From positions 1-42,246 of the forward strand of contig WGMW01000043.1 in the NCBI GenBank assembly GCA_016124845.1: a DNA stretch of 42,246 nt, in the 5' to 3' direction. Below, piece by piece: positions 744 through 38,066 of this stretch. The notes beneath the pieces are model-generated. The model saw nothing but the letters and a program-made list of their open reading frames with translations, had not been told where the DNA came from and did not search any database. The position numbers and the translations under genes are program-made. Numbering within the stretch: position 1 is the first letter of the stretch; every line of letters starts with the position of its first letter. The stretch comes from Flavobacteriales bacterium (GTDB lineage Bacteria; Bacteroidota; Bacteroidia; UBA10329).

Positions 744-1160
744 TTACTCCACCGTCAAGGTCAGGTTTGCCTGCTTGTTCAGTCCATCGCGGTTGGTGAT
801 GGTGAATGTGAAAGCATGCGTATTGCCCGAAACGGTATCGGTGTTGGTAAATGTGTAATCATGGTCATAGCTGGTAGCTTCAAGGTCTTCCGTATAAACC
901 GTTGTGGTCGATCCACCGTTCACCGATTCGGAAACATTGAAACGGATGATCGGATCCTTGGCCTTCTCGGTTTCCGCTTCAACGCCAATGGTTATTGTGT
1001 CGTTTGCAGCCATGGTGCCATCCTGGTATGTGTAACCTGCGGTGGATTTGAACGAGATGTGCAGTTCATCGCCCTCATCCTCTTTATCGCAAGAGACAAG
1101 CACAGAAGCCATAAGCATTACTGCAAACATGGTTTTGAAAATTGAATTGATCGCTTTCAT
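744..1160 (-). CDS. Small lipoprotein at the end of a TonB-receptor operon
   Basis: This 138-residue protein has a type II signal peptide: a Lys-containing start, a hydrophobic stretch and the lipobox LVSC followed by DKEDEGDE, an acidic stretch typical of surface-directed Bacteroidota lipoproteins. The remainder looks beta-rich (alternating Thr/Val/Phe strands) and resembles no enzyme I know. Its ATG overlaps the TGA of the TonB-dependent receptor gene (ATGA, 4 bases), which implies translational coupling. By analogy with receptor-lipoprotein pairs it may sit on the outer membrane and help bind the receptor's substrate; this is inference from position only. The gene ends at the bidirectional terminator. 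Confidence 0.85.
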   Translation of the reverse strand: MKAINSIFKTMFAVMLMASVLVSCDKEDEGDELHISFKSTAGYTYQDGTMAANDTITIGVEAETEKAKDPIIRFNVSESVNGGSTTTVYTEDLEATSYDHDYTFTNTDTVSGNTHAFTFTITNRDGLNKQANLTLTVE

Positions 1161-3394
1161 TTTTTGATTGTTGTTAAATGGTTTTTGAATTTGATTTTAA
1201 GATTGATAGACACGTCCCAACCGATGTTGAGCGTGCCGTAAAGTTTGAGCCGTGACAGGTGGTCGTAGTAGGCCTGATTCGTCAGGTTGTTTCCCACCAG
1301 ATTCAACTCATAGTTGACCTTCTCACCGATATATTCGGCTCCGAAGCCCGCATTGAGCAATTGGTAGCTTGGTGTGGACTTTTCGGTGGAGTAGGTCAGG
1401 TATTGCCGCAGCACGAGGTCGGTATTCACAAAGCCTCGGAACGACCACCTCGCATTGTATTGGCGACTGTAAGCCACTTCGGGCCGCACCTTCTGCGCTG
1501 GCATCCAAGGAAGGAACTCCCCATTGTTCAACTTCCCAACAAGCCCCGAATAACTGGCCGAAATGCGCAGTCCTTTTGTCTGCGGTGGTGTAATGGAAAT
1601 GGAAGCCTCACCACCGTAGAGATCCGCATCGTGCTGGCGGAACCGATACACGGGAAATCCGAACCATTCCTCATCGGTCGGATCCAAGAAGATGTACCCG
1701 AAGAAATGGTTGTAGAAACCCGAAACACTTGCCTGAACCCACTTGGAGGTGAACGCAACCTGCGCATCGCCATTGATGTTCTGCTCGTTCTTCATGTTCG
1801 GGTCACCGATCTCGTACGTGTAAACACCTTCGTGCAGGCCGTTGGAGGAAAGCTCCGCCAAATTGGGTGCCCGCACACCGCTGGCAGCGTTCAGCTTCAA
1901 GTTCCAATGGCTGTTGGGCGAGTAGCTGATGCCGACCAGACCATTTCCAAACTCGCGCGTCTGCGCAAACGGATGAATGTCTTTCTCAGCCGAATTGACC
2001 GTTGGAGTCAGCAACGTTTTGATGTAGCGGATGCCGCCTCCTGCACCGTATTCCACCATGAAACGGTTAAAGCGATGCTTTAAGTAAACCGACACAACGC
2101 TTTCCACCATCCACGCGTCAGGCACGATCTTGCGCCTGCCGTAATTGGTGTTGTTCTCCATGCTGGAAAGATTGGCCACCACCAGTTGCGTTCGGTTGCT
2201 GAGCTGCTTCAGCCACTTCACCGAATTCTGCACGGTGAGCAGATGCATTTCCAAACTCAGTTCGCCCCCGCCTTCATCCTCCGAACGGAAGTTCGATTGA
2301 AAACCCGTGTTCAAGCGAAGCAATGAATTCTTCAGTCGGATGTCGTTGGCGGATGAGAATACATTCAGCATGACGATGTGGTGCGGCCCCGACATCTTGC
2401 GGCTCCATCGCGCATCTTTCTCCATGAAATGAAGGATGTCGTTGAAGATGAAACCGAAGTTGTTGTACGAGAAATGGTAATGGTTCACCGATTTCCAGTT
2501 CTTCCGCTCAAACCCGAAAGACGCCTTCAGGTAATAGCCATCGTAGCGGCTGTTCAGTACACGCGTTCCGTTTCCATCCGAATAATCCGCGTGATTGTCC
2601 ACGCCCACACGAAAGCGGAACCACTTGTTGCCGAAATTGGCTTTCGTTCCGACCTGAAACGTTCCTCCCAACGTATTGGAATGGAACTCTACGCCAAGGT
2701 CCGTTTCCCACATTCCCACCTTGGGAGGCTGCTCTTCGATGATGTTGATGACACCACCCACGGCATCCGTTCCATAGAGAATGCTCAACGGACCTTTGAT
2801 CACTTCCACCTTTGAAATGCCCAAATCGGAAAGACCGAGACCGTGCTCATCCTGCCATTGCTGGTTGTCGAACCGCAGGCCTGAGAACAGCACAAGTAGG
2901 CGATTGCCATACAGTCCGCGTACCACAGGTTTGGAAACACCCAAACCCGTGCTGAACTGCGAAATGCCAGGCACGCGCGCCAGCGCATCGGTGAGATTGA
3001 ACGAGCCTTGTCGTGCAATCTGGCGTATGTTGAGTGGCTCTATCGGAATGCTGGTTTCCAACGCATCTTCATCGGCATATGCCGAGACCAGAACTTCATC
3101 CAGCGGGTTGGCCGAGGCTGAGAGTTGAACCTTCGGATGTTCCGTCAGTTCGGTGTAACTCAGTTCGAGTGGCCTGTAACCCACCATGCGAATAATGATC
3201 TCTGCTACGCCTCTGAAAGCCGACACATCTGCATTTCCGTTCACATCTGTTACGGCCAGCCTCTTTGGTTCTTCGCTCGAAATGGTAGCGTAACCCAAAG
3301 GTTGGCCCGAAAGACTGTCCTGAACGGTGATGGTCTGTGCCTGCGCATTCGCCAACATGCCCAACAGGAACCACAGTATCAGAATTCTGAACAT
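1157..3394 (-). CDS. TonB-dependent outer-membrane receptor
   Basis: 745 residues. An N-terminal signal peptide (cleavage near ANAQA, residues 16-20) is followed by a carboxypeptidase-regulatory-like beta domain (about 20-100), then a plug domain with the typical VRGLYGNRLLVLFSG region and the segment 'VEVIKGPLSILYGTDAVGG' around residues 195-215, then a long beta-barrel. It should import a TonB-energised substrate such as a metal chelate, cofactor or oligosaccharide. The length and the single N-terminal domain fit a siderophore/cofactor-type receptor better than a 1000-residue SusC, and no SusD follows. It is the middle gene of a three-gene operon: an upstream membrane protein (59-base gap) and a downstream overlapping lipoprotein. 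The substrate cannot be read from the sequence. Confidence 0.95.
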   Translation of the reverse strand: MFRILILWFLLGMLANAQAQTITVQDSLSGQPLGYATISSEEPKRLAVTDVNGNADVSAFRGVAEIIIRMVGYRPLELSYTELTEHPKVQLSASANPLDEVLVSAYADEDALETSIPIEPLNIRQIARQGSFNLTDALARVPGISQFSTGLGVSKPVVRGLYGNRLLVLFSGLRFDNQQWQDEHGLGLSDLGISKVEVIKGPLSILYGTDAVGGVINIIEEQPPKVGMWETDLGVEFHSNTLGGTFQVGTKANFGNKWFRFRVGVDNHADYSDGNGTRVLNSRYDGYYLKASFGFERKNWKSVNHYHFSYNNFGFIFNDILHFMEKDARWSRKMSGPHHIVMLNVFSSANDIRLKNSLLRLNTGFQSNFRSEDEGGGELSLEMHLLTVQNSVKWLKQLSNRTQLVVANLSSMENNTNYGRRKIVPDAWMVESVVSVYLKHRFNRFMVEYGAGGGIRYIKTLLTPTVNSAEKDIHPFAQTREFGNGLVGISYSPNSHWNLKLNAASGVRAPNLAELSSNGLHEGVYTYEIGDPNMKNEQNINGDAQVAFTSKWVQASVSGFYNHFFGYIFLDPTDEEWFGFPVYRFRQHDADLYGGEASISITPPQTKGLRISASYSGLVGKLNNGEFLPWMPAQKVRPEVAYSRQYNARWSFRGFVNTDLVLRQYLTYSTEKSTPSYQLLNAGFGAEYIGEKVNYELNLVGNNLTNQAYYDHLSRLKLYGTLNIGWDVSINLKIKFKNHLTTIKK

Positions 3395-5358: not shown

Positions 5359-5898
5359 ATGCAAGGCAAGAAAATACTGATCGGAGTTACAGGCGGCATT
5401 GCTGCTTTCAAAACACCTTTGTTGGTGCGTCTGATCGTGAAGGCAGGTGCAGAGGTGAAGGTGGTGGCTACCGATGCGGCTTTTGACTTTGTAACGCCAT
5501 TGACGCTTTCCACCGTTTCTAAGAATCCTGTTCTGAGTTCGCTTTCCAATGCCGAAGGCAATTGGAACAACCATGTGGAACTTGGACTTTGGGCCGATGT
5601 ATTTGTAATTGCTCCCGCTACGGCCAACACCATCGGGAAAATGGCCAACGGCATCTGCGATAATCTTCTACTGGCCACATATCTTTCTGCAAGATGCCCT
5701 GTTGTGGTTGCCCCGGCCATGGACCTTGATATGCTTCAGCATCCAGCAGTAAAAAAGAACATGGCAACCATTGCCGATTTCGGTAACCGCATCATTGAGC
5801 CGACCGAAGGAGAATTGGCCAGTGGCCTCGAAGGCAAAGGCAGAATGGCCGAACCTGAACAGATCTTTCAATTTGTGAAGGAATTGCTGCATGCCTGA
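5359..5898 (+). CDS. coaC: Phosphopantothenoylcysteine decarboxylase (CoaC part of a split CoaBC)
   Basis: 179-residue flavoprotein catalysing decarboxylation of 4'-phosphopantothenoylcysteine in coenzyme A synthesis. Visible are the flavin-binding start (GVTGGIAAFKTP), the catalytic His in NNHVELG (about residue 73), the PATANTIGKMANGICDNLL motif, and PAMDLDM in place of the enterobacterial PAMN; the D form is what I recall for Bacteroidota. The loop normally carrying a Cys reads GELASGLEGKGRM. In most bacteria this domain is fused to CoaB in one protein of about 400 residues. Here it stops after FVKELLHA, and the CoaB frame starts 8 bases inside its end (ATGCCTGA). Either the genes are truly separate and coupled, or a single-base indel lies at the linker. 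Confidence 0.9.
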   Translation: MQGKKILIGVTGGIAAFKTPLLVRLIVKAGAEVKVVATDAAFDFVTPLTLSTVSKNPVLSSLSNAEGNWNNHVELGLWADVFVIAPATANTIGKMANGICDNLLLATYLSARCPVVVAPAMDLDMLQHPAVKKNMATIADFGNRIIEPTEGELASGLEGKGRMAEPEQIFQFVKELLHA

Positions 5899-6541
5899 AC
5901 TGCGCGGAAAAAAGGTGCTTATCACCGCAGGCCCAACCTATGAGGCCATCGATCCTGTTCGGTTTATCGGCAATCATTCGTCTGGAAAAATGGGAATTGC
6001 CATTGCTGAAGTTGCTGCTGAAAATGGGGCAGAAGTGACCTTGATCTGTGGGCCTTCGCATGTTAAATGTTCCAAAAACATCCATCGTGTCGACATCATT
6101 TCTGCACAAGAAATGTTTGATAAAGTGATGAAACGCATGACAGACCAAGACATTCTTATCTGCGCTGCTGCGGTGGCAGACTATCGCCCCAAGCATGTTG
6201 CGGAGAATAAAATGAAGAAGAAAGACGTTTCCCTGACCATTGAACTGGAGCCGACACCAGATATTCTGGCCACGCTGGGAGCTACGAAGCGTAAGGATCA
6301 GATTCTTGTTGGCTTTGCTCTGGAAACAGACAATGAGTTGGAAAACGCAAAATCGAAATTGAAAAACAAGAACTGTGACCTACTGATTCTGAACTCGCTT
6401 CAGCATAAAGGAGCAGGGTTTGGGCACGACACCAACAGGGTTTCAATTCTGGACAGACACAATAATATATCTACTTTTGAATTGAAGTCGAAAACAGCGG
6501 TTGCAGACGATATTCTGCACGCCATCATCGCCATAAAATGA
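5891..6541 (+). CDS. coaB: Phosphopantothenate-cysteine ligase (CoaB part of a split CoaBC)
   Basis: 216 residues. It joins cysteine to 4'-phosphopantothenate using a nucleotide triphosphate, the step before CoaC. Canonical motifs are intact: LITAGPTYEAIDPVRFIGN near residues 10-28 followed by HSSGKMG, then AAAVADYRP (about 94-102), and the C-terminal GFALETDNELENAKSKLKNK with the conserved Lys cluster. The ATG lies within the end of coaC, in the +1 frame relative to it, exactly where fused CoaBC proteins have a linker. Its TGA overlaps the porD ATG (ATGA). Together the two ORFs sum to about 395 residues, the normal fused length. Confidence 0.9.
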   Translation: MPELRGKKVLITAGPTYEAIDPVRFIGNHSSGKMGIAIAEVAAENGAEVTLICGPSHVKCSKNIHRVDIISAQEMFDKVMKRMTDQDILICAAAVADYRPKHVAENKMKKKDVSLTIELEPTPDILATLGATKRKDQILVGFALETDNELENAKSKLKNKNCDLLILNSLQHKGAGFGHDTNRVSILDRHNNISTFELKSKTAVADDILHAIIAIK

Positions 6542-7436: not shown

Positions 7437-9092
7437 ATGCTGACCCGCCTGCACGTTCGTAATTACGCCATCATTTCCGAGTTGCATGTGAAATTTTCAG
7501 ATGGTCTCACCATCATTACTGGTGAAACTGGTGCGGGAAAATCGATCTTGATCGGAGCACTTTCGTTAGTACTCGGTAAGCGGGCAGATACATCTGTGCT
7601 GTATGATGCTGATGAGAAATGTGTGGTCGAAGCGCATTTTGAGATCGGTGGTTTTGGGTTGGAAGCATTCTTTGAACAGAACGACCTCGATTTTGAAAAG
7701 CATACCATTCTGAGACGCGAGATCAATGCGCAAGGAAAGTCGCGAGCGTTTGTGAATGATACGCCTGTCAATCTCTCGCAACTGAAAGAGCTTGCCAGCA
7801 ATTTGATCGACATTCATTCACAACACGAAGTGCTGACACTCAAAACACCTGAGTTCAGAGCAAGATTTCTGGATGCCTGCGCGGATGGAGGAAAACAGTA
7901 CGCGAAATTTCAGAAGGCATATTCGGAGTGGAATGCGCTAAAGCGGCAAGTTGAGAAACTGAAGCAGAAACTGCAGGAAGCCTCTGCTGATGAAGATTAT
8001 GTGCGGTTCCAGCTTTCTGAATTGCTGGAACTGAACCTGAAAGAAGGCGAGTTCGCAGAAAATCAAGAACGATTGAATCTACTTGAGAATGCGGAAGAGA
8101 TCCGACAAACGCTCGGACAGGTTTCTGAAGGATTTTCAGGTGTGGAAGGTTCCATTTTGGATCAACTCCGAAGAATTGAATCGGAGCTGGGTCATTTGGC
8201 TCGGAAACATGCGCCATCGAAAGATTGGACGGAACGCGTGAAATCCAGTTTCTTGGAACTGGAAGATGTGGCTCAGGAAATTGAGCGAAGTGCCGAGGGG
8301 CTGAACGAAGACCCTGAGGAATTGATTCGACTACAGGAGCGAGTGGATGAAGTGGTTCGATTGATGACGAAGCATCGCAAGCAAAGCGAGAGCGAATTGA
8401 TTGAATTTCAGCAAGAGCTGGAAGAAAAATTGGATGGCATTGGCGTTTCCGATGAACAACTGACCTTGCTCCAGGCAGAATTGGAATTAGCTGGCTCCAA
8501 ACTCGAATCGGAAGCAACGCTGCTGAGCCAGTTGCGTGCTACTGCCGCCAAAAATGTTGCTCCCGTCATTGAATCTGAGTTGCACGAACTCGGAATGCCC
8601 GATGCCACTTTGAAGATCGAATTGCACCGAACTGAGGTCAATGTGCTCGGCCAAGATGGAATCGATATTCAGTTCACCGCCAATAAGGGACAGGCGTTGC
8701 AAGACATCAGCAAAGTGGCCAGCGGTGGTGAGCTCTCGCGACTGATGCTATCCGTCAAATCGCAGATCGCAAAGACATCGCAATTGCCTGCCATCATCTT
8801 TGATGAGATCGATACAGGTGTTTCGGGAGATGTAGCGAACAAGGTTGGGCAGAAGATACGCTCGTTGAGTACGTTGATGCAAGTGCTGTGCATCACGCAT
8901 TTGCCGCAGATCGCTTCCAAAGCTGACCAACATCTGTATGTTTACAAGCAGATTGAAAAAGGTAAAACGGAAACGAAAGTGCGTGAACTGAATGAGCAGG
9001 AACGAGTGGTTGAGGTAGCGAAAATGCTAAGCAATGCCAACCCGACCGAAGCAGCCTTAACGCACGCGAAAAACTTACTTAACGAAAAATGA
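7437..9092 (+). CDS. recN: DNA repair protein RecN
   Basis: 551 residues, the normal size for this SMC-like ATPase of double-strand-break repair. Walker A GETGAGKS is at residues 29-36. A long coiled coil spans about 160-370. The C-terminal half has the signature ASGGELSRLMLSVKS and the Walker B region IIFDEIDTGVSG, then ITHLPQIA. The ATG at 7437 lies five bases after porD. It is the last gene of the operon; fabI follows after 68 bases. Confidence 0.97.
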   Translation: MLTRLHVRNYAIISELHVKFSDGLTIITGETGAGKSILIGALSLVLGKRADTSVLYDADEKCVVEAHFEIGGFGLEAFFEQNDLDFEKHTILRREINAQGKSRAFVNDTPVNLSQLKELASNLIDIHSQHEVLTLKTPEFRARFLDACADGGKQYAKFQKAYSEWNALKRQVEKLKQKLQEASADEDYVRFQLSELLELNLKEGEFAENQERLNLLENAEEIRQTLGQVSEGFSGVEGSILDQLRRIESELGHLARKHAPSKDWTERVKSSFLELEDVAQEIERSAEGLNEDPEELIRLQERVDEVVRLMTKHRKQSESELIEFQQELEEKLDGIGVSDEQLTLLQAELELAGSKLESEATLLSQLRATAAKNVAPVIESELHELGMPDATLKIELHRTEVNVLGQDGIDIQFTANKGQALQDISKVASGGELSRLMLSVKSQIAKTSQLPAIIFDEIDTGVSGDVANKVGQKIRSLSTLMQVLCITHLPQIASKADQHLYVYKQIEKGKTETKVRELNEQERVVEVAKMLSNANPTEAALTHAKNLLNEK

Positions 9093-9160
9093 ACGGTTAG
9101 GAATTCGAAATTGGTTTTCTTCCAAGGCTCAATTCTTCATTCCAATTCATACTTATCAAA

Positions 9161-9946
9161 ATGGGGTACAATCTTCTAAAAGGAAAGAAAGGAATCATTT
9201 TCGGAGCGTTGGACGACCGTTCCATTGCTTGGAAAGTGGCAGAGAAATGTGTGGATGAAGGTGCAGAGATCATTCTCACCAATGCGCCAGTTGCGCTTCG
9301 GATGGGCGCCATTAAGGAATTGGGGGAGAAGCTCAATGCAGATATTATTCCCGCTGATGTGACCGTAATGGAAGACATTGAGAATCTGGTGGCTACTGCG
9401 AAGGAGAAGTTCGGTGGTTTGGACTTCATGCTTCATTCTGTCGGCATGTCTCCGAATGTGAGAAAGGGGAGAGGCTACACCGATCTGAACTACGATTTCT
9501 TCCACAAGACATTGGATATTTCGGCCATGTCGTTGCATCGCGTGTTGCAGACCTGCTATAAGCAGGATGCCTTGAATGAATGGGCGTCTGTGGTGGCTTT
9601 GACTTACATCGCTGCTCAAAGAACTTATACTGGTTATGGCGATATGGCCGAGGCCAAAGCCATGTTGGAAAGCATTGCCCGTAGTTTCGGACATCATTAT
9701 GGAGTGAAGAAGAAAGTGCGGGTGAATACGATTTCGCAAAGCCCGACCGTGACCACTGCAGGTTCGGGAGTGGAAGGTTTTGATGACTTCATCAATAATG
9801 CAGACAAACTTTCTCCGCTGGGAAATGCCTCAGCTGCGGAATGTGCTGATTACTGCGTAACGCTTTTCTCAGACCTTACGCGCAAAGTGACCATGCAGAA
9901 TCTTTTCCATGATGGAGGCTACAGCAGCATGGGAGCGACAGATTAG
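9161..9946 (+). CDS. fabI: Enoyl-[acyl-carrier-protein] reductase (NADH), FabI type
   Basis: 261-residue short-chain dehydrogenase-like enzyme that reduces the trans-2-enoyl-ACP double bond in fatty acid synthesis. FabI-type features: the divergent nucleotide-binding start (KGKKGIIFGALDDRSIAWK), LHSVGMSP, and the catalytic Tyr-x6-Lys in YGDMAEAKAMLE with an extra upstream Tyr, followed by VRVNTISQSPTVT. This is the classic triclosan-target fold. It ends before a bidirectional terminator shared with clpC. Confidence 0.95.
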   Translation: MGYNLLKGKKGIIFGALDDRSIAWKVAEKCVDEGAEIILTNAPVALRMGAIKELGEKLNADIIPADVTVMEDIENLVATAKEKFGGLDFMLHSVGMSPNVRKGRGYTDLNYDFFHKTLDISAMSLHRVLQTCYKQDALNEWASVVALTYIAAQRTYTGYGDMAEAKAMLESIARSFGHHYGVKKKVRVNTISQSPTVTTAGSGVEGFDDFINNADKLSPLGNASAAECADYCVTLFSDLTRKVTMQNLFHDGGYSSMGATD

Positions 9947-22911: not shown

Positions 22912-23544
22912 TTATTCGCAGACTTCGTTGAGTACGGCTGAGATCTCCAGCTTTACATCTGGCCAAAGTTTGCTCACGCCATCAGCACCTTTGTGCAGAT
23001 CGAAGCATACTTTATTCAGAGAATCTGCATTTGCAACTGCTTGATAATCGGCCAATTCGATTTTTCCTTCCAAGCTCAGCAAGCTATCTGTTCTGCTTAC
23101 GCTGAAAGGAACCGTGTCGGTCACTCCGTTCATGGTCAGCAACACTTTCAGTTCAGAATCGGTTGCCTCCAACACTTTCCCGCTCAACTCAGCAGTCTCC
23201 ACCATGGTTGAGAAGAAGTGTTTGAAGATCTTTTCATCTCTTCCTGTATTGGCCGAGTTGACACTGGAAGTTGGAATATTGAACGAAGCGCTACCGAAAA
23301 CGCCTGCAAGATCGGATGCCTGATTGACACCTGAAACCAGAACTGTGTCGAACGTACCCGAAACGCCCACGCGCTCCGATGTTTTATAAGCAGTCCATTT
23401 TACGTTGATTGAATTCTCCGCGTAGCTCAACTGACAATCAGCAGCGGCCTTTTCCTGAGCTTCTTCGTGGTTTCCTCCTGATTTGGTGTCGCAAGCGGTC
23501 ATAAAAGCAATGGCCGCGCCAAGAATAATTGCATATCGTTTCAT
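22912..23544 (-). CDS. YceI-like lipoprotein
   Basis: 210 residues. The signal peptide with lipobox (FMTAC) begins at the ATG at 23544, which I prefer over the longer open frame. The body follows the YceI lipocalin-like barrel pattern: 'INVKWTAYKTSERVGVSGTF', then ASFNIPTSSVNSANTGRDEK and a repeat of amphipathic strands. YceI proteins bind isoprenoid-like or amphipathic lipids in the periplasm. A downstream NMO-like gene may share the transcript. Confidence 0.9.
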   Translation of the reverse strand: MKRYAIILGAAIAFMTACDTKSGGNHEEAQEKAAADCQLSYAENSINVKWTAYKTSERVGVSGTFDTVLVSGVNQASDLAGVFGSASFNIPTSSVNSANTGRDEKIFKHFFSTMVETAELSGKVLEATDSELKVLLTMNGVTDTVPFSVSRTDSLLSLEGKIELADYQAVANADSLNKVCFDLHKGADGVSKLWPDVKLEISAVLNEVCE

Positions 23545-23614
23545 GAGATGATGTTTTTTGGGTTTGTGAATTACTGGCGAAATTGGTGATTTTAAAGACC
23601 AACCCCAAGTCGGA

Positions 23615-25150
23615 TCACGCCATTTGATACTCTTGGACCAAACGAACATGCAATTTGCGCATGTATTCGTCCTGAAGCCACTTGATGTAGCTGGGCGTGG
23701 TCTTGGATAGACATTGGCCGTATTTTCGAACGCGGTACTCGATCTCGTCTCCCAACAGCTTCGCCAGATCCTTGGCATCCCAAAGGTCTTCGGCATTTTC
23801 TGCGCAGATGCGAACATGTTGATCGATCGACTCATCGATGACCACTTTTGGCTTATCACCTCGTTTTACCGCACGACCGTACGCTTCGCTGATGTTAAAA
23901 TCGATGTTTTCAGATCGGCTGAACTTCTCACGTAATTCTGGCGGCATTTTGTATCGGAAATCGCGCTGAATCTCCTCATCCGACCGAATGCTGTTCAAAT
24001 GCATATCGGGATGGCGAAAAATGTGTTCCCAGTTCACATAGGCATCCCAAAGACCGAAACGTGCCACATTATTACCAAGATCGATCACCGTGAACTCCCG
24101 TTTGTTTCCCAGTATTCTGGAACCGCGACCGATCATCTGAAAATACAGCGTCATGGAACGTGTGGCCCTATTCAAGATGATGGTATCAACTGTCGGTTCA
24201 TCAAACCCTGTTGTGAGAATCCCAACAGAAGTCAAAATCGCATCTGGCGTATGCTTGAACCAATGCAGTACTTCCCTCCTTTCGGCAGGCGTGTTCTTGT
24301 TGTCGAGATGGCGAATGTCGTAACCTGCTTTCTTAAAGGTGTCGTGCACATACAACGATGTGTTGATGCCATTGTTGAAGATCAGCGTCTTCTTGCCAAG
24401 CGAATGGTCCTGATATGAACGCAGCAAGCGGCTCTGCATCGAGTAATCCGTGTAGAGTTCATCAGATGAACGTACGGTGTAATCTCCGTTGATCCCGACA
24501 TTCAGCGACAGCAGATTCAGATCGTAAGTAACTGTATTGGCCTTGGCCAGATAGTTCGTTTCCACCAGCGAACTGATGGATTCGCCAATGATCAACTCCT
24601 CATAGTTCTCATTCATCGGCAAGTTGATGTTCGAACTCAGCGGTGTGGCTGTCACGCCCAGAACCGTGCTCTTTTCAAAGAACTTGAACAGCTTCCCAAA
24701 CGAGTTGTAATGCGCCTCATCAATAATTACCAGCCCGATATCTTTCAGTTCAAATGCATCGTCATTGAGGCGATTGTTGAGCGTTTCCACCATCGCCACA
24801 AAACATTGATAGTCATCCTGATCGGGAAGTTCCTTCACATCGCTGGTAATGACCTTGTTCCTTACCGTGAACGTATCGAGCATACGCGAGGTCTGCCCGC
24901 AGAGCTCAATCCTATGCGTTAGAATGATGACCTTCTGCTTCTTCTCCAGAATAAATCGTCTGGCGATCTCGGAGAAGATGACCGTTTTGCCACCACCAGT
25001 GGGTAATTGAAAAAGCAGATTGATGGGATTTTCCGCTTCCAGCAGGCGGTCCATAATGCGGAACAGCGCCTTTTTCTGGTATTCGTAAAGCTCCTTCCCC
25101 ACTCCGTTTTCGGAGTCTTCTTCCAGTTCTATGTGGTCATTCGCGGCCAA
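23615..25150 (-). CDS. SF2 DEAD/DEAH-box helicase, RadD-like
   Basis: 511 residues. Q-like 'YEYQKKAL', Walker A PTGGGKT (50-56), DEAH (144-147), TAT (167-169) and QMIGRGSR (338-345) are all present, giving two RecA-like domains. The C-terminal ~130 residues hold no motif I know. The motif pattern, with LDxxxNVxRxGxWD-like text after motif VI (DLGNNVARFGLWD), resembles RadD/YejH repair helicases, so a role in DNA repair is possible. The start is a TTG, supported by the box TAGTATTG (plus-strand 25156-25163) five bases before it and by the lack of an in-frame ATG before the Q motif. No partner nuclease or methylase is adjacent. Confidence 0.85.
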   Translation of the reverse strand: MAANDHIELEEDSENGVGKELYEYQKKALFRIMDRLLEAENPINLLFQLPTGGGKTVIFSEIARRFILEKKQKVIILTHRIELCGQTSRMLDTFTVRNKVITSDVKELPDQDDYQCFVAMVETLNNRLNDDAFELKDIGLVIIDEAHYNSFGKLFKFFEKSTVLGVTATPLSSNINLPMNENYEELIIGESISSLVETNYLAKANTVTYDLNLLSLNVGINGDYTVRSSDELYTDYSMQSRLLRSYQDHSLGKKTLIFNNGINTSLYVHDTFKKAGYDIRHLDNKNTPAERREVLHWFKHTPDAILTSVGILTTGFDEPTVDTIILNRATRSMTLYFQMIGRGSRILGNKREFTVIDLGNNVARFGLWDAYVNWEHIFRHPDMHLNSIRSDEEIQRDFRYKMPPELREKFSRSENIDFNISEAYGRAVKRGDKPKVVIDESIDQHVRICAENAEDLWDAKDLAKLLGDEIEYRVRKYGQCLSKTTPSYIKWLQDEYMRKLHVRLVQEYQMA

Positions 25151-28209: not shown

Positions 28210-29310
28210 TTAGCGTTTAACAACTCGGAAGGTCTGTATGTCTTGGTCAGAAACCAAAGTGACATGATATACACCACTTTCAAACCCTGTGATGTCAATG
28301 GTCTGTTTAGAATTTTGAAAACTTTGACGAAGTACGGCTTGCCCGAGAGAGGTGTAGACCGTCACCGTGCCACGGAAGGACCGTGGGCCATTTAACGTTA
28401 GCAGTCCATTGGTCGGGTTTGGGAACAGCGAAAATTCGGTAGGGTCCGATCTCTCAGAAATACCGACCGATGACGTTACGCCATTCAGCGAATCAACCAC
28501 CTCCAACGTGTTTCCGAGTTCGTAGAAATCGACCGTAGGGAAATTCGAGAACTTACCCGTCTCGTTCCAGCATTGCAATGCACGTGGGTAGAAGTAGTTG
28601 AACTCATTGGCCTGTGCAGCCAGGTCTGCTCTTCCTGTTCCCAACGTAGGGTCAGTTGCAAAATGATTCAGAATGAACAGGTCGTTGATAGAGTCTCCGC
28701 GATTGAAATCACAACTGAAGTCGCTCAGTGCATTATTGGCAAAGTTGGTCTCCACGGCAAAATCCCACATGTAGAGATACCAATCCTGACCTGGCTGACC
28801 ATTGTTGTGATCCGAAAAGATCACCAATCGCTTACCTGAATCGATCATTTCCTGCAACGTAGGCCACGGCTCACCCAATGACTGTACATACAGCATCGGT
28901 TTCAGGCCAACTTGCGTGATCACCGTGTCCATCAGATCCGAAGTGATGTAGGTCTCGAACAAGATGGTGACGATCTCATTCGGATTAGCGTCCAGAAAAT
29001 CCTTTATCTCTGTGAGGCTGGTGGCCAGCGGTTCTGTTCCCAGAAAAGAAAACCCGTGGTATTCCGTGGCTACACCGCCTTCATCGTAAACATCCAGCAT
29101 CAATGCCCGAACGCCATCGTTCAGCTGCTGTGCAACCCCATGTGTCTGATTGGGCAGATTGAAGCCATCATCGCCTGCATTGAAAGAGTTATGCGTGGTG
29201 AGGTAAGCAACCTGATCATAACGTTTGCCGCATAGTTCGGGATGGCCATTGCATTGAGCAATGACCCAAACCGGAATGAATTGAATGAGAATGATGAATG
29301 AGAATCGCAA
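28210..29310 (-). CDS. Secreted PI-PLC-like phosphodiesterase with T9SS sorting domain
   Basis: 366 residues from a TTG start. Signal peptide (residues 1-18, ending VIAQ). PLC-like TIM barrel: LTTHNSFNAGDDGFNLPNQT with the first catalytic His, RALMLDVYD, and EYHGF with the second His, then VTILFETYI and LVIFSDHN. This fold cleaves phosphoinositol-like head groups by acid-base catalysis. The last ~75 residues (SLFPNPTNGLLTL to FRVVKR) are a typical type A T9SS C-terminal sorting domain, so the enzyme should cross the outer membrane and be released or surface-attached. PorD is encoded at 6538-7431. The substrate is unknown. Confidence 0.9.
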   Translation of the reverse strand: MRFSFIILIQFIPVWVIAQCNGHPELCGKRYDQVAYLTTHNSFNAGDDGFNLPNQTHGVAQQLNDGVRALMLDVYDEGGVATEYHGFSFLGTEPLATSLTEIKDFLDANPNEIVTILFETYITSDLMDTVITQVGLKPMLYVQSLGEPWPTLQEMIDSGKRLVIFSDHNNGQPGQDWYLYMWDFAVETNFANNALSDFSCDFNRGDSINDLFILNHFATDPTLGTGRADLAAQANEFNYFYPRALQCWNETGKFSNFPTVDFYELGNTLEVVDSLNGVTSSVGISERSDPTEFSLFPNPTNGLLTLNGPRSFRGTVTVYTSLGQAVLRQSFQNSKQTIDITGFESGVYHVTLVSDQDIQTFRVVKR

Positions 29311-35001: not shown

Positions 35002-35988
35002 ATGCAAGAAATGAACGATAAAAAATACATCCGTTTTCAATGGTTGGCCGTCTCGGTAGGTGTGGTCATTCTGGTCATTAAGTTCTTTGCGTTCCATGTA
35101 ACGGGCTCCAACGCCATTCTGTCGGATGCCTTGGAAAGCATCATCAACGTGGTGGCGGGGTCTTTTGCGCTTTACAGCCTCATTCTGGCCGCCAAACCGA
35201 AGGACATGGACCATCCGTACGGTCATGGAAAGATCGAGTTCATTTCATCAGGAATCGAAGGTACGCTCATCTTTCTTGCAGGTGTCAGCATCATTGTCAA
35301 GTCCATCCACGATCTTTTTCAGGAACACACCGTGGTGGAATTGAACCTTGGCATTTATCTGGCAGCAGGTGCTGGGCTTATCAACTATTTGCTTGGATGG
35401 TTTACCGAATCTTATGGAAGAAAGAACCATTCGCCCACCATGGTGGCCAGCGGCAAACACCTGAAGAGCGATGGCTACACTTCGCTTGGTCTTATCCTGG
35501 GATTGACCGTTGTGCTATTCACCAAGCTCATTTGGTTGGATAGCGTCATTGCCATCGGATTCGGAACCTACATCGGAATTGTGGGATTGAAAGAAATTCG
35601 GAAATCCGTTGCGGGCATTATGGATGAGGCCGACTTTGAACTTTTGGAAAGTCTGATAACCGAAATAGATGCGAACCGGACCGAGAACTGGATCGATCTG
35701 CACAATTTCCGAGCGCAGAAGTTCGGAAAAGGCATCCACATCGATTGCCATGTTACCGTACCCTATTACCTCACGGTAGAAGAAGCGCATGAAGAGATCG
35801 ATGCCATTGAGCAACTGGTACGCACCAATTATCCGTATGGCGTGGAGATGTTCATTCATGCCGATCCCTGCATTCCCACTTCCTGCCGCATCTGCAGCAA
35901 GAAAGACTGTCCAGTAAGGCAATCGCCACATGAAGAGACCATTACATGGAAGTTGGATTCGGTGCTGGAGAACAGCAAACACGCATGA
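35002..35988 (+). CDS. Cation diffusion facilitator (CDF) family transporter with a Cys-rich tail
   Basis: 328 residues (325 if the ATG at 35011 is used, which the promoter position favours). Six membrane segments. In the second, the metal-site signature reads LSDALESIINVV; in the fifth, KHLKSDGYTS gives HxxxD. The C-terminal cytoplasmic domain (IHIDCHVTV) is typical. It expels divalent metal ions such as Zn2+, Fe2+ or Mn2+ using the proton gradient. An added C-terminal motif, C-x5-C-x2-C-x4-C (CIPTSCRICSKKDC), looks metal-binding. The frame continues upstream, but that region overlaps the universal-stress gene and the promoter. Confidence 0.9.
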   Translation: MQEMNDKKYIRFQWLAVSVGVVILVIKFFAFHVTGSNAILSDALESIINVVAGSFALYSLILAAKPKDMDHPYGHGKIEFISSGIEGTLIFLAGVSIIVKSIHDLFQEHTVVELNLGIYLAAGAGLINYLLGWFTESYGRKNHSPTMVASGKHLKSDGYTSLGLILGLTVVLFTKLIWLDSVIAIGFGTYIGIVGLKEIRKSVAGIMDEADFELLESLITEIDANRTENWIDLHNFRAQKFGKGIHIDCHVTVPYYLTVEEAHEEIDAIEQLVRTNYPYGVEMFIHADPCIPTSCRICSKKDCPVRQSPHEETITWKLDSVLENSKHA

Positions 35989-36017: not shown

Positions 36018-38066
36018 ATGAGACGAATAATAATTCTACTTACTCTACTTCCTTTTGCTGGCATGTCTCAGATAAGATGGCTGGATGATGGCAAACCTAT
36101 CGACCACCCTGAACCCATGCTACAGGCGGCCATGCAAGACCTTGATTCGCTGACGCAGGCGCAGGGCATTTCAATCACGTTACAGATAAAGGATGCCGAC
36201 ACCATTCCAGCAGGGCGCACCGTTACCTTCGCGGGCATTCACTTCGTGTATTATCCCGAACATCACTATCAATGGTCGGGAAGCTATCCCAACTACACAC
36301 TGACCTCCCAATCGGTTCAAGGGCTTACCTTCGGTATCTATGGCCTGCTTGATGAAGTGCTCGGGTTCCATTTTATCCATCCCAAGCAGACTATCCGACC
36401 CAATGAGGTGAAATGGCCACAGGAACTGAGCTACAGTTCCAGAGCGCGTTTTATGAAACATGGGTTTCATCTGCATACGCAGCACCCGTTGGAACTCACA
36501 GAACAGTTGCACAACCCCGACCTTCCCAATGCGTGGCCCGATGTGAAGGAATACATCGATTGGCTGGTGCGCAACCGACAGAACTACTGGGAATGGTGCC
36601 TCCTTCGCACCGTAGACATGGACAAATGGCAGCCGCATGCCAAGCGCATGGTCGACTACTCGCATCAGCGCGGACTGATGATAGGCATTGATGTATCGTT
36701 GCACATGATACAGCAGCGCACGTTCCAACTGTACAAAGGCTGGCCCAAGAGTTGGCGAAGCAAGGAAGAACAGCTCAAGCGCAGCTTGGCCGACCTCTAC
36801 TATGCCGAATGGGATTTCCTGAACGTGGAGTTCAATACGGCTGAGTTTGTGGGTGGTAAGGACAAACTGAAAACACGGTTGAAGAAGACCCTCATCACCA
36901 CCGCGCGCAACACGTACCACAGTAACATCATGGGGCGCAAGCATGTGGTAAGTGCGGAGAACATGGTAGGCGAACAGGCCGATGTTTTCAGCGCCAACGA
37001 CAGCATCGACCTGTACCGTGGCGTAGGCATCCATACGGTAATGATGTACAGTTTGGAGGATAGCGTGGCGCCTGTATATGAGAACAGGAACTTCCACCAC
37101 ATCTACAAGGATATGCTGCGCGGGAACAAGGTGCGCGAAGTGTGGTTCTATCCCGAAAGCGCCTATTGGGTAACGTACGACAACTCGGTGCCGATGCTGC
37201 TTCTTCCCTACCTCAGCGCACGGCTGAGCGACATTCTGCTGTGCCAAAAGGAGCATGTGCCGAACCACCTCACTTTCAGCAGCGGTTGGGAATGGGGCTA
37301 TTGGGCGGTTGATTGGAGCATTGCCCGTTGGAGTTGGAAAAGCACCTTCGATGGCAAGGAACATGCTCCCCAGCCGATGGAATGGGTCACTACCTTGGGT
37401 TATTCGGATGAAGTGAAAGAAAACCTGAACGAGCAATTGGCATTGCAGCATGAATACTTGGGAGACAGAAACCTGCTGCGTTTCATGTGTGCGCAAACGG
37501 TGACCGATGAGCTATCGTTGTTCCGTAAGCAGTTTGAGCCACGGCCCGACTATACCTTCAAATGGTTGCAGAACAGATCGGATGAGGGAACAAGAAATAG
37601 AATCAGGCAAATTGGATTGAAGGATCTTGGAGAGTTCTATGCAAGATCGAAGAACCTGAACAGCGAGTTGGCCATGATGGTGGACACGCTCCATCCCTCT
37701 CCTCTTTCTGACTACCTGCTTGCACTACAGGTTACAACCATGCGCGCCAAGCACCGCAATGCCACCATCAATGCCATGCTGGCGCATCGCGAAAAGCGCA
37801 TGGACGATAAGGCCGATTGGTTGCAGAAGGCCACAGACCTGCGACTACACACGCTGGGCGCGGTTCATAAATTGGAACTCAACTACAAGTACAACCCCGA
37901 ATACCTCTACACTGAGCGATTCAGCCATACCTCCTACCCTTATGGTTACCTCTATGCTCCGCATACGCTGCACTTCTGGAAACGGGAGGAACAGCAGAGC
38001 CGCAAAAACCGCTGGGGCTACAACTTTATGAGCATCTGGAAGGTGGGACGCATCATTGGGTTGTAA
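36018..38066 (+). CDS. Large exported protein, glycoside-hydrolase-like, family not recognised
   Basis: 682 residues with a signal peptide (MRRIIILLTLLPFAGMSQ). Residues about 50-130 resemble the alpha/beta domain that precedes the barrel in alpha-glucuronidase- and GH20-like enzymes (QGLTFGIYGLLDEVLGFHFI). Then come strands with motifs 'NYWEWCLL', GLMIGIDVSLHM, 'DFLNVEFNTAEF' and 'REVWFYPESAYWVTYDNS', consistent with a TIM barrel having acidic residues at strand ends. The C-terminal third is helical. I cannot name a family or a substrate. It follows the CDF gene by 29 bases, so the two may share a transcript. Confidence 0.7.
   Translation: MRRIIILLTLLPFAGMSQIRWLDDGKPIDHPEPMLQAAMQDLDSLTQAQGISITLQIKDADTIPAGRTVTFAGIHFVYYPEHHYQWSGSYPNYTLTSQSVQGLTFGIYGLLDEVLGFHFIHPKQTIRPNEVKWPQELSYSSRARFMKHGFHLHTQHPLELTEQLHNPDLPNAWPDVKEYIDWLVRNRQNYWEWCLLRTVDMDKWQPHAKRMVDYSHQRGLMIGIDVSLHMIQQRTFQLYKGWPKSWRSKEEQLKRSLADLYYAEWDFLNVEFNTAEFVGGKDKLKTRLKKTLITTARNTYHSNIMGRKHVVSAENMVGEQADVFSANDSIDLYRGVGIHTVMMYSLEDSVAPVYENRNFHHIYKDMLRGNKVREVWFYPESAYWVTYDNSVPMLLLPYLSARLSDILLCQKEHVPNHLTFSSGWEWGYWAVDWSIARWSWKSTFDGKEHAPQPMEWVTTLGYSDEVKENLNEQLALQHEYLGDRNLLRFMCAQTVTDELSLFRKQFEPRPDYTFKWLQNRSDEGTRNRIRQIGLKDLGEFYARSKNLNSELAMMVDTLHPSPLSDYLLALQVTTMRAKHRNATINAMLAHREKRMDDKADWLQKATDLRLHTLGAVHKLELNYKYNPEYLYTERFSHTSYPYGYLYAPHTLHFWKREEQQSRKNRWGYNFMSIWKVGRIIGL

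Follow-up and report, generated by a model that had tools for sequence, protein, structure and literature searches.

The window analysed here, a 42,246-nucleotide stretch of a Flavobacteriales genome contig, carries on its forward strand an intact ORF of 682 codons (36018..38066, +), which we describe below as the CDS of a protein with a GH20-type fold and whose translation is free of stops over all 682 residues. An in-frame TAA lies directly 5' of its ATG, so that the protein can have no start further upstream. Comparison with the orthologue from a congener (G004) gave differences of 0.178, 0.126 and 0.507 at codon positions 1, 2 and 3 and a dN of 0.15 (dS was not computable and is taken as saturated), and 80 of the 80 fetched relatives are without a stop inside the matched stretch, a few of them ending at a contig edge; the codon-position differences and these stop-free relatives together argue that the frame is under selection. 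We take the overlapping ORF of 438 amino acids on the opposite strand (36180-37496) to be a shadow ORF, since it is the plus frame that is conserved. The N-terminus, MRRIIILLTLLPFAGMSQ, reads like a Sec signal peptide, probably covering residues 1-18 (36018..36071, +), and a similar hydrophobic start was seen by eye in many relatives; the 682-residue exported protein of the preliminary description is thereby borne out at the level of the reading frame and its signal-like start. Since Pfam matched no T9SS sorting tail in this protein, while another protein of the window carries one, the periplasm is its probable destination. The other protein (28213-29310, -), with its Por_Secre_tail domain, indicates that type IX secretion substrates exist in the host.

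The gene lies 29 bp downstream of a cation-efflux (CDF) exporter on the same strand (PF01545, 4e-41; 35011..35988, +, with the start inferred at MNDKK and the longest ORF running from 34723), which is the metal exporter that the preliminary description had placed before it. The same description saw no SusCD pair, sulfatase or CAZyme operon next to the gene, and Pfam scans of ten ORFs between 29.4 and 42.0 kb agree: they yielded CDF, Usp, ABC, SpoIIE, Radical SAM and P-type ATPase proteins and four ORFs with no family, and none was a SusC/D protein, a sulfatase or a CAZyme. Ten further ORFs were scanned, making 20 of the 36 other ORFs of the window, and included one TonB receptor, at 1160-3394. 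Elsewhere in the window, CoaBC is represented by two overlapping ORFs (5359-5895 and 5891-6538, +), one with its Flavoprotein half (PF02441) and one with its DFP half (PF04127), as a split gene or a frameshift, and a YceI-domain ORF overlaps a ResIII/helicase ORF (22915-23859 and 23618-25150, -), maybe owing to a wrong start or a frameshift.

Two congeners, G004 and G008, keep the CDF exporter upstream with other genes in between, namely a 174-residue ORF in G004 and, in G008 (L119:11641-15342), a D12-class DNA methyltransferase (PF02086), an unassigned ORF of 287 residues and a divergent one of 533 residues that is OstA-like by reading. Nor was the exporter seen, by eye, among the neighbour clusters common to at least four of the 80 loci studied (see below), and on these two grounds a metal link through it was rejected. 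The largest neighbour cluster reached 8 of the 80 loci, at varying places, many loci having short flanks. The gene upstream has the same orientation in 52 of 77 loci and in 34 of the 77 lies within 60 bp as well, its identity varying by clade. Pfam searches of the immediate neighbours of 64 aligned loci (62 upstream, leaving out a paralogue at L103, and 63 downstream) found no family in more than four, and glycoside hydrolases, SusC/D proteins and sulfatases were absent from the 25 commonest of 95 upstream and the 25 commonest of 82 downstream families. In view of this lack of a shared neighbourhood we rejected a PUL or operon hypothesis for the family, though a CAZyme may lie beside a single member. 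CNNM and CorC_HlyC domains occur in 4 of the 62 upstream neighbours; at L106, L109, L112 and L113, all from hot-spring Bacteroidia, a CNNM/CorC-type membrane protein lies upstream on the opposite strand.

An unnamed family and its distribution

The preliminary description recognised no family for the protein and proposed an HMM search of CAZy and Pfam families as a check; the Pfam search, now run, matched no family model. At E<=0.01 none of 65 aligned members was matched (0/65), the window protein having one match, at 0.1, and a set of 16 members none better than 0.03. PF00728 (GH20), PF16126 (DUF4838, GH163), PF07555 (GH84) and PF05089 (GH89) were without a match across the 65 members, as were the GH67 models and PF15979 (GH115) in scans of both 16 and 65 members. 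NCBIfam gave no match for the window protein and three single-member matches among the 65 (E 0.001-0.006), all to unrelated families, which we read as chance. Against the PDB the single protein had one match at 0.69, a 16-row profile none, and the 65-row family profile two only, at E 1.9 and 8.8, none of them credible. The string YPESAYW and papers on this protein family were not found in a literature text search, and the passages of PMC11087588 on other hexosaminidase lineages draw no link to it. By these searches the family is unnamed, in the sense of having no credible match in Pfam, NCBIfam or PDB.

Of 59 near genomes 10 carry a relative, as do 32 of the 395 in a class draw (25 of 339 if only good genomes are taken). 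The own genome is counted in both sets, and the totals also take in copies cut short by a contig end (G002, G031) and a two-frame copy in G088. The latter (G088:C1:2227789-2228786, in a one-contig genome) consists of two shorter open frames and is possibly a decaying gene. The family profile, run against 395 genomes drawn from the phylum, returned the own gene and two weak N-domain matches in DUF4838 proteins. As the same profile, tried on 18 of the class draw's 31 other carriers, recovers all 18, the phylum draw held few or no carriers, and 32/395 describes the class draw; prevalence varies with the genomes drawn and is low outside the clades of the class draw. None of the listed carriers among the 32 genomes coincides with the 27 genomes carrying GH67 or the 23 carrying GH115; an anticorrelation with these families was set aside as not significant (P 0.09 and 0.13, assuming that the same genomes were drawn each time).

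A scan of named genome contigs returned 99 relatives, from which 80 loci were kept. By their titles nearly all are Bacteroidota MAGs (Chitinophagales, Saprospiraceae, Aureispira, Flavobacteriales, Bacteroidia). A single record comes from an isolate, Aureispira sp. CCB-QB1 (L060); one entry is titled 'uncultured bacterium' (L061) and two are titled as other phyla, Nitrospiraceae (L095) and Saccharospirillaceae (L103). Since a FastTree phylogeny places the last two among Bacteroidota rows, they are probably mis-binned or mislabelled MAG contigs. The family is found almost only in Bacteroidota, and phages, plasmids and viral contigs gave no match. The family alignment joins the window protein to 64 of the 80 loci (65 rows), and its most divergent members share about 34% identity; left out, by eye, were 16 loci judged near-duplicates or fragments (L042, L044, L049, L055, L059, L061, L067, L072, L077, L087, L088, L096, L097, L099, L100 and L110). 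A tandem second copy was seen at one locus (L103:5755-7746 and 7776-9839), the only such pair among the neighbours of the 80 loci. In G008 (C37:12549-14615, -) the profile alignment crosses one TAG, which a shorter ORF with a TTG start avoids, and the N-terminus of this copy is uncertain.

Predicted fold and kinship with known glycoside hydrolases

AlphaFold2, run with the 65-row alignment, predicted the structure at a pLDDT of 92.0 and a pTM of 0.92 as an N-terminal alpha/beta domain followed by a (beta/alpha)8 barrel and a helical C-terminal domain. The N-terminal domain, about residues 19-135 (36072..36422, +), appears GH20b/GH67N/GH163-N-like from the model, from an hhalign match to GH20 that begins at residue 78 and from the weak matches to the N-part of DUF4838 proteins. 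The barrel spans residues 138-462 (36429..37403, +), with predicted strands at 147-152, 190-194, 221-227, 267-271, 303-308, 335-340, 375-380 and 416-421, and is delimited by the model and a barrel-only VIA-align. The helical domain takes up residues 464-620 (37407..37877, +), a full-length alignment with GcnA/GH20C reaching residue 677, and is followed by a C-terminal segment (37878..38063, +) in which Y625, Y640, G643, Y644, L651, W654, R656, E657 and G681 are invariant in the 65-row alignment. This model accords with what had been read from the sequence, i.e., an N-terminal domain like that of GH20 or alpha-glucuronidases and TIM-barrel-like strands with acidic residues: the predicted N-domain is of the GH20b/GH67N type, the motifs EFNTAEF and YPESAYW are located at residues 271-277 and 378-384, and the structure prediction that the preliminary description had called for, with a fold other than a TIM barrel counting against its reading, gives a TIM barrel. 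A separate prediction for the barrel region, made from 50 of the 65 rows, again gives a TIM barrel (pLDDT 87.9).

With the whole model, Foldseek ranks GH138 first (6hze, 2.2e-14), then GH20C (5a6b, 1.4e-13), followed by FjGH20, GH84, GH115 and GH67. VIA-align, where rows within 1 Z of each other count as tied, gives GH20C 5a6a (Z 22.3; 5.5 A over 480 aligned residues), BtGH84 2cho (Z 21.1; 8.7 A, 483), FjGH20 6yhh (Z 20.5; 3.4 A, 348) and human HEXB 1nou (Z 20.5; 3.8 A, 361). For the barrel alone its top row is GH20 2epo (Z 20.3; 3.3 A, 267), then Cwp19 5oq3 (Z 19.3), with GH67 1l8n at Z 19.2 (3.8 A, 276) and GH84 2xpk at Z 18.9 (3.7 A, 268). Foldseek, by contrast, puts GH5 chains first for the barrel alone (6.1e-8) and lists a few sugar epimerases and isomerases from rank 13 on, so that ranking at the level of the barrel depends on the method. 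That the predicted fold is closest to those of GH20, GH84, GH67, GH115 and GH138 is well supported by these comparisons.

At the profile level, hhalign aligned the family to GH20 at 96.4% (E 1.4e-9) over 138 columns, from residue 78 to 241, with 25% identity, and at 92.7% with the barrel alone; the reversed GH20 control gave 0.1% and all reversed alignments at most 0.9%. DUF4838 reached 78.7% with the whole protein and 1.6% with the barrel alone, GH67, GH115 and DUF4838 all staying at or below 1.6% in the latter comparison. GH67 and GH115 gave 5.9% and 1.0% with the first profiles and 19.9% and 14.5% with larger ones (27 and 28 sequences), and GH84 gave 0.1% with a profile of one sequence; the GH20 profile held seventeen sequences (three partial or weak loci left out) and that of DUF4838 seven. 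The PE motif of NAGLU had suggested kinship with GH89, which was rejected on an hhalign value of 0.5% (six-sequence profile). For calibration, GH84 aligned to GH20 at 97.3%, GH67 at 93.6-94.2%, GH115 at 71-92%, GH89 at 23% and DUF4838 at 99.5%, the last through a C-terminal stretch only. By these values the family is about as distant from GH20 as accepted separate families are. Similarity to GH20 fades past strand b3, so sequence lends no support to equivalence with GH20 in the half of the barrel where the catalytic residues are presumed to lie. Global alignment to GH20 or GH67 was tried for locating these residues and dropped as unreliable after b3.

In its predicted layout the 682-residue protein most resembles Streptococcus GcnA/GH20C, a GH20 enzyme with a GH20b-like N-domain, a (beta/alpha)8 barrel and a helical C-domain; the GH20b-barrel architecture is present in the model and in the structural alignments. 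According to PMC4449183, GH20b is found in GH84 and GH67 too and domain III of GcnA is helical. The profile similarity to GH20 covers the end of the N-domain and b1-b3, whereas the family differs from GH20 in that, by strand order, the b4 Glu is not preceded by Asp, that the position remotely aligned with the b1 Arg is not consistently Arg, and that similarity is not reliable after b3. The GH84 O-GlcNAcases share the layout and fold (2cho and 2xpk, above) but, as judged with the one-sequence profile, not the profile similarity. Likewise, the alpha-glucuronidases of GH67 and GH115 have a GH67N-type N-domain with a barrel and both stand in the Foldseek list, yet their hhalign values remain low. 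DUF4838, which is GH163 (PMC9870897), an endo-acting N-glycan enzyme (PMC10154615), resembles the family in the weak match of the family profile to the N-part of two DUF4838 proteins and differs from it in the barrel and in the lack of a PF16126 match. The RG-II enzyme family GH138 (BP0997-type) has the best Foldseek E-value, with a TM of 0.51-0.54 by query length, but only 12-14% identity, and was compared by fold alone.

Candidate active site and possible function

Forty-nine positions are invariant across the 65 members (up to 5 gaps tolerated in a column), and within the barrel they favour the C-terminal ends of the strands. With the AlphaFold2 strand borders, the C-terminal face, taken as the two final residues of every strand plus the next eight, has a mean entropy of 0.93, vs 1.84 on the N-terminal side, and 19 of the 49 invariant residues fall on it against 5 on the N-terminal face (80 positions each). 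When the C-terminal-face set is slid along the sequence, entropy has its minimum at -2 (0.856) and rises to 1.84 at -12 and 1.76 at +12, which is what a conserved barrel mouth should give. Three glutamates stand out here as candidates. Glu271 (36828..36830, +), the last residue of b4, is E in 56 and D in 9 of the 65 members, and is thus acidic in all of them; by strand order it would be the equivalent of the GH20 catalytic Glu and a candidate acid/base. Glu276 (36843..36845, +) in the loop after b4 is conserved in 65/65 and is the alternative candidate. Glu380 (37155..37157, +) in the motif YPE[ST]AYW, at the end of b7 in the model, is likewise conserved in 65/65 and is a candidate nucleophile or base. 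GH20 enzymes have a catalytic Asp-Glu pair where b4 ends (Asp313 of SpHex, Asp539/Glu540 of chitobiase, from titles in the reference list of PMC4449183), and their b1 carries a conserved Arg that belongs to subsite -1, Arg162 in SpHex (PMC4449183). GGDE is present in 17 of 17 GH20 comparison sequences; residue 270 of the family is V in 28, M in 21, I in 13, L in 2 and C in 1, with Asp in 0/65, and the GH20 catalytic Asp would accordingly be missing if equivalence by strand order, not superposition, holds. Residue 148, which a remote alignment pairs with the b1 Arg, is Arg in 22 and Lys in 28 of the 65. Six histidines (H151, H153, H156, H309, H339 and H417) are conserved in 64-65 of 65 members, which is unusual for a plain two-carboxylate site and would be compatible with a metal or a different acid/base chemistry.

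We favour, with somewhat better than even confidence, the reading that the protein is an enzyme of a glycoside-hydrolase-like family without a name, exported and probably periplasmic, that would use two catalytic carboxylates. Its GH20-group fold and kinship with GH20 are well supported; it is probably a glycoside hydrolase, its active site would by strand order be a replaced one, and the proposed catalytic roles are read from conservation and strand order. On this reading a glycosidic bond would be cleaved at the C-terminal mouth of the barrel by two carboxylates: the Glu just after b4 (E271 or E276) would be the general acid/base, and E380, where b7 ends, the nucleophile or base. The Asp-Glu pair of GH20 would not be used. 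The gene stands alone and its assembly, 98.9% complete, has no match to the DUF4838/GH163, GH67, GH20, GH84, GH115 or GH89 models, from which a glycan of the cell's own envelope or a small free saccharide might be a likelier substrate than polysaccharides taken up by foraging. A bolder version, which we offer tentatively and regard as doubtful, sees a new GH family with its own catalytic apparatus (b4/b7 carboxylates and a His-rich pocket) on a GH20 scaffold, acting on an envelope glycan that the cells make themselves, in Bacteroidota with few related glycosidases. The family lacks a Pfam, a credible NCBIfam or a PDB sequence match, yet it has 49 invariant positions and is found in 32/395 class-draw genomes; a founding activity would give it a name and could reveal a glycan that is invisible to current annotation.

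Among the alternatives, a non-catalytic protein that uses an old GH scaffold for binding glycans or in a structural role would fit the patchy distribution, the lack of an adjacent GH, TonB or SusCD gene and the lack of a shared neighbourhood; we consider it unlikely, for invariant carboxylates and aromatics that cluster at the barrel mouth in members down to about 34% identity form the pattern of an active site. Similarly, one could see in the protein a divergent true GH20 hexosaminidase with substrate-assisted catalysis, GH20 being the closest of the compared families by profile, topping the VIA-align lists and sharing the GH20b-barrel-helical layout of GcnA. This has a low probability given that PF00728 is unmatched in the 65 members, that the residue before the b4 Glu is V/M/I/L/C in 65/65 as against Asp in GH20 (by strand order), and that the b1 position aligned to the conserved Arg is Arg in only 22/65. 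An HxH on b1 with His after b5 and on b6 is reminiscent of metal-dependent TIM barrels. The corresponding histidines here (64-65/65) and the few epimerases and isomerases in the barrel-only Foldseek list, from rank 13 on, would suit an enzyme of some other chemistry on a GH20-type scaffold, e.g., a metal-dependent one acting through the cluster of H151, H153, H309 and H339. The chance of this is about as low, since the nearest VIA-align folds are glycoside hydrolases at Z of about 20 for both the whole protein and the barrel and H417 sits at the start of its strand. That the protein is an outlying member of GH67, GH115, GH163 (DUF4838), GH84, GH89 or GH138 is very improbable in light of the hhalign values (GH67 19.9%, GH115 14.5%, GH89 0.5%, and GH84 0.1% with its one-sequence profile) and the lack of Pfam matches in 65 members, even though Foldseek lists GH138, GH115, GH67 and GH84 and DUF4838 reaches 78.7% in hhalign.
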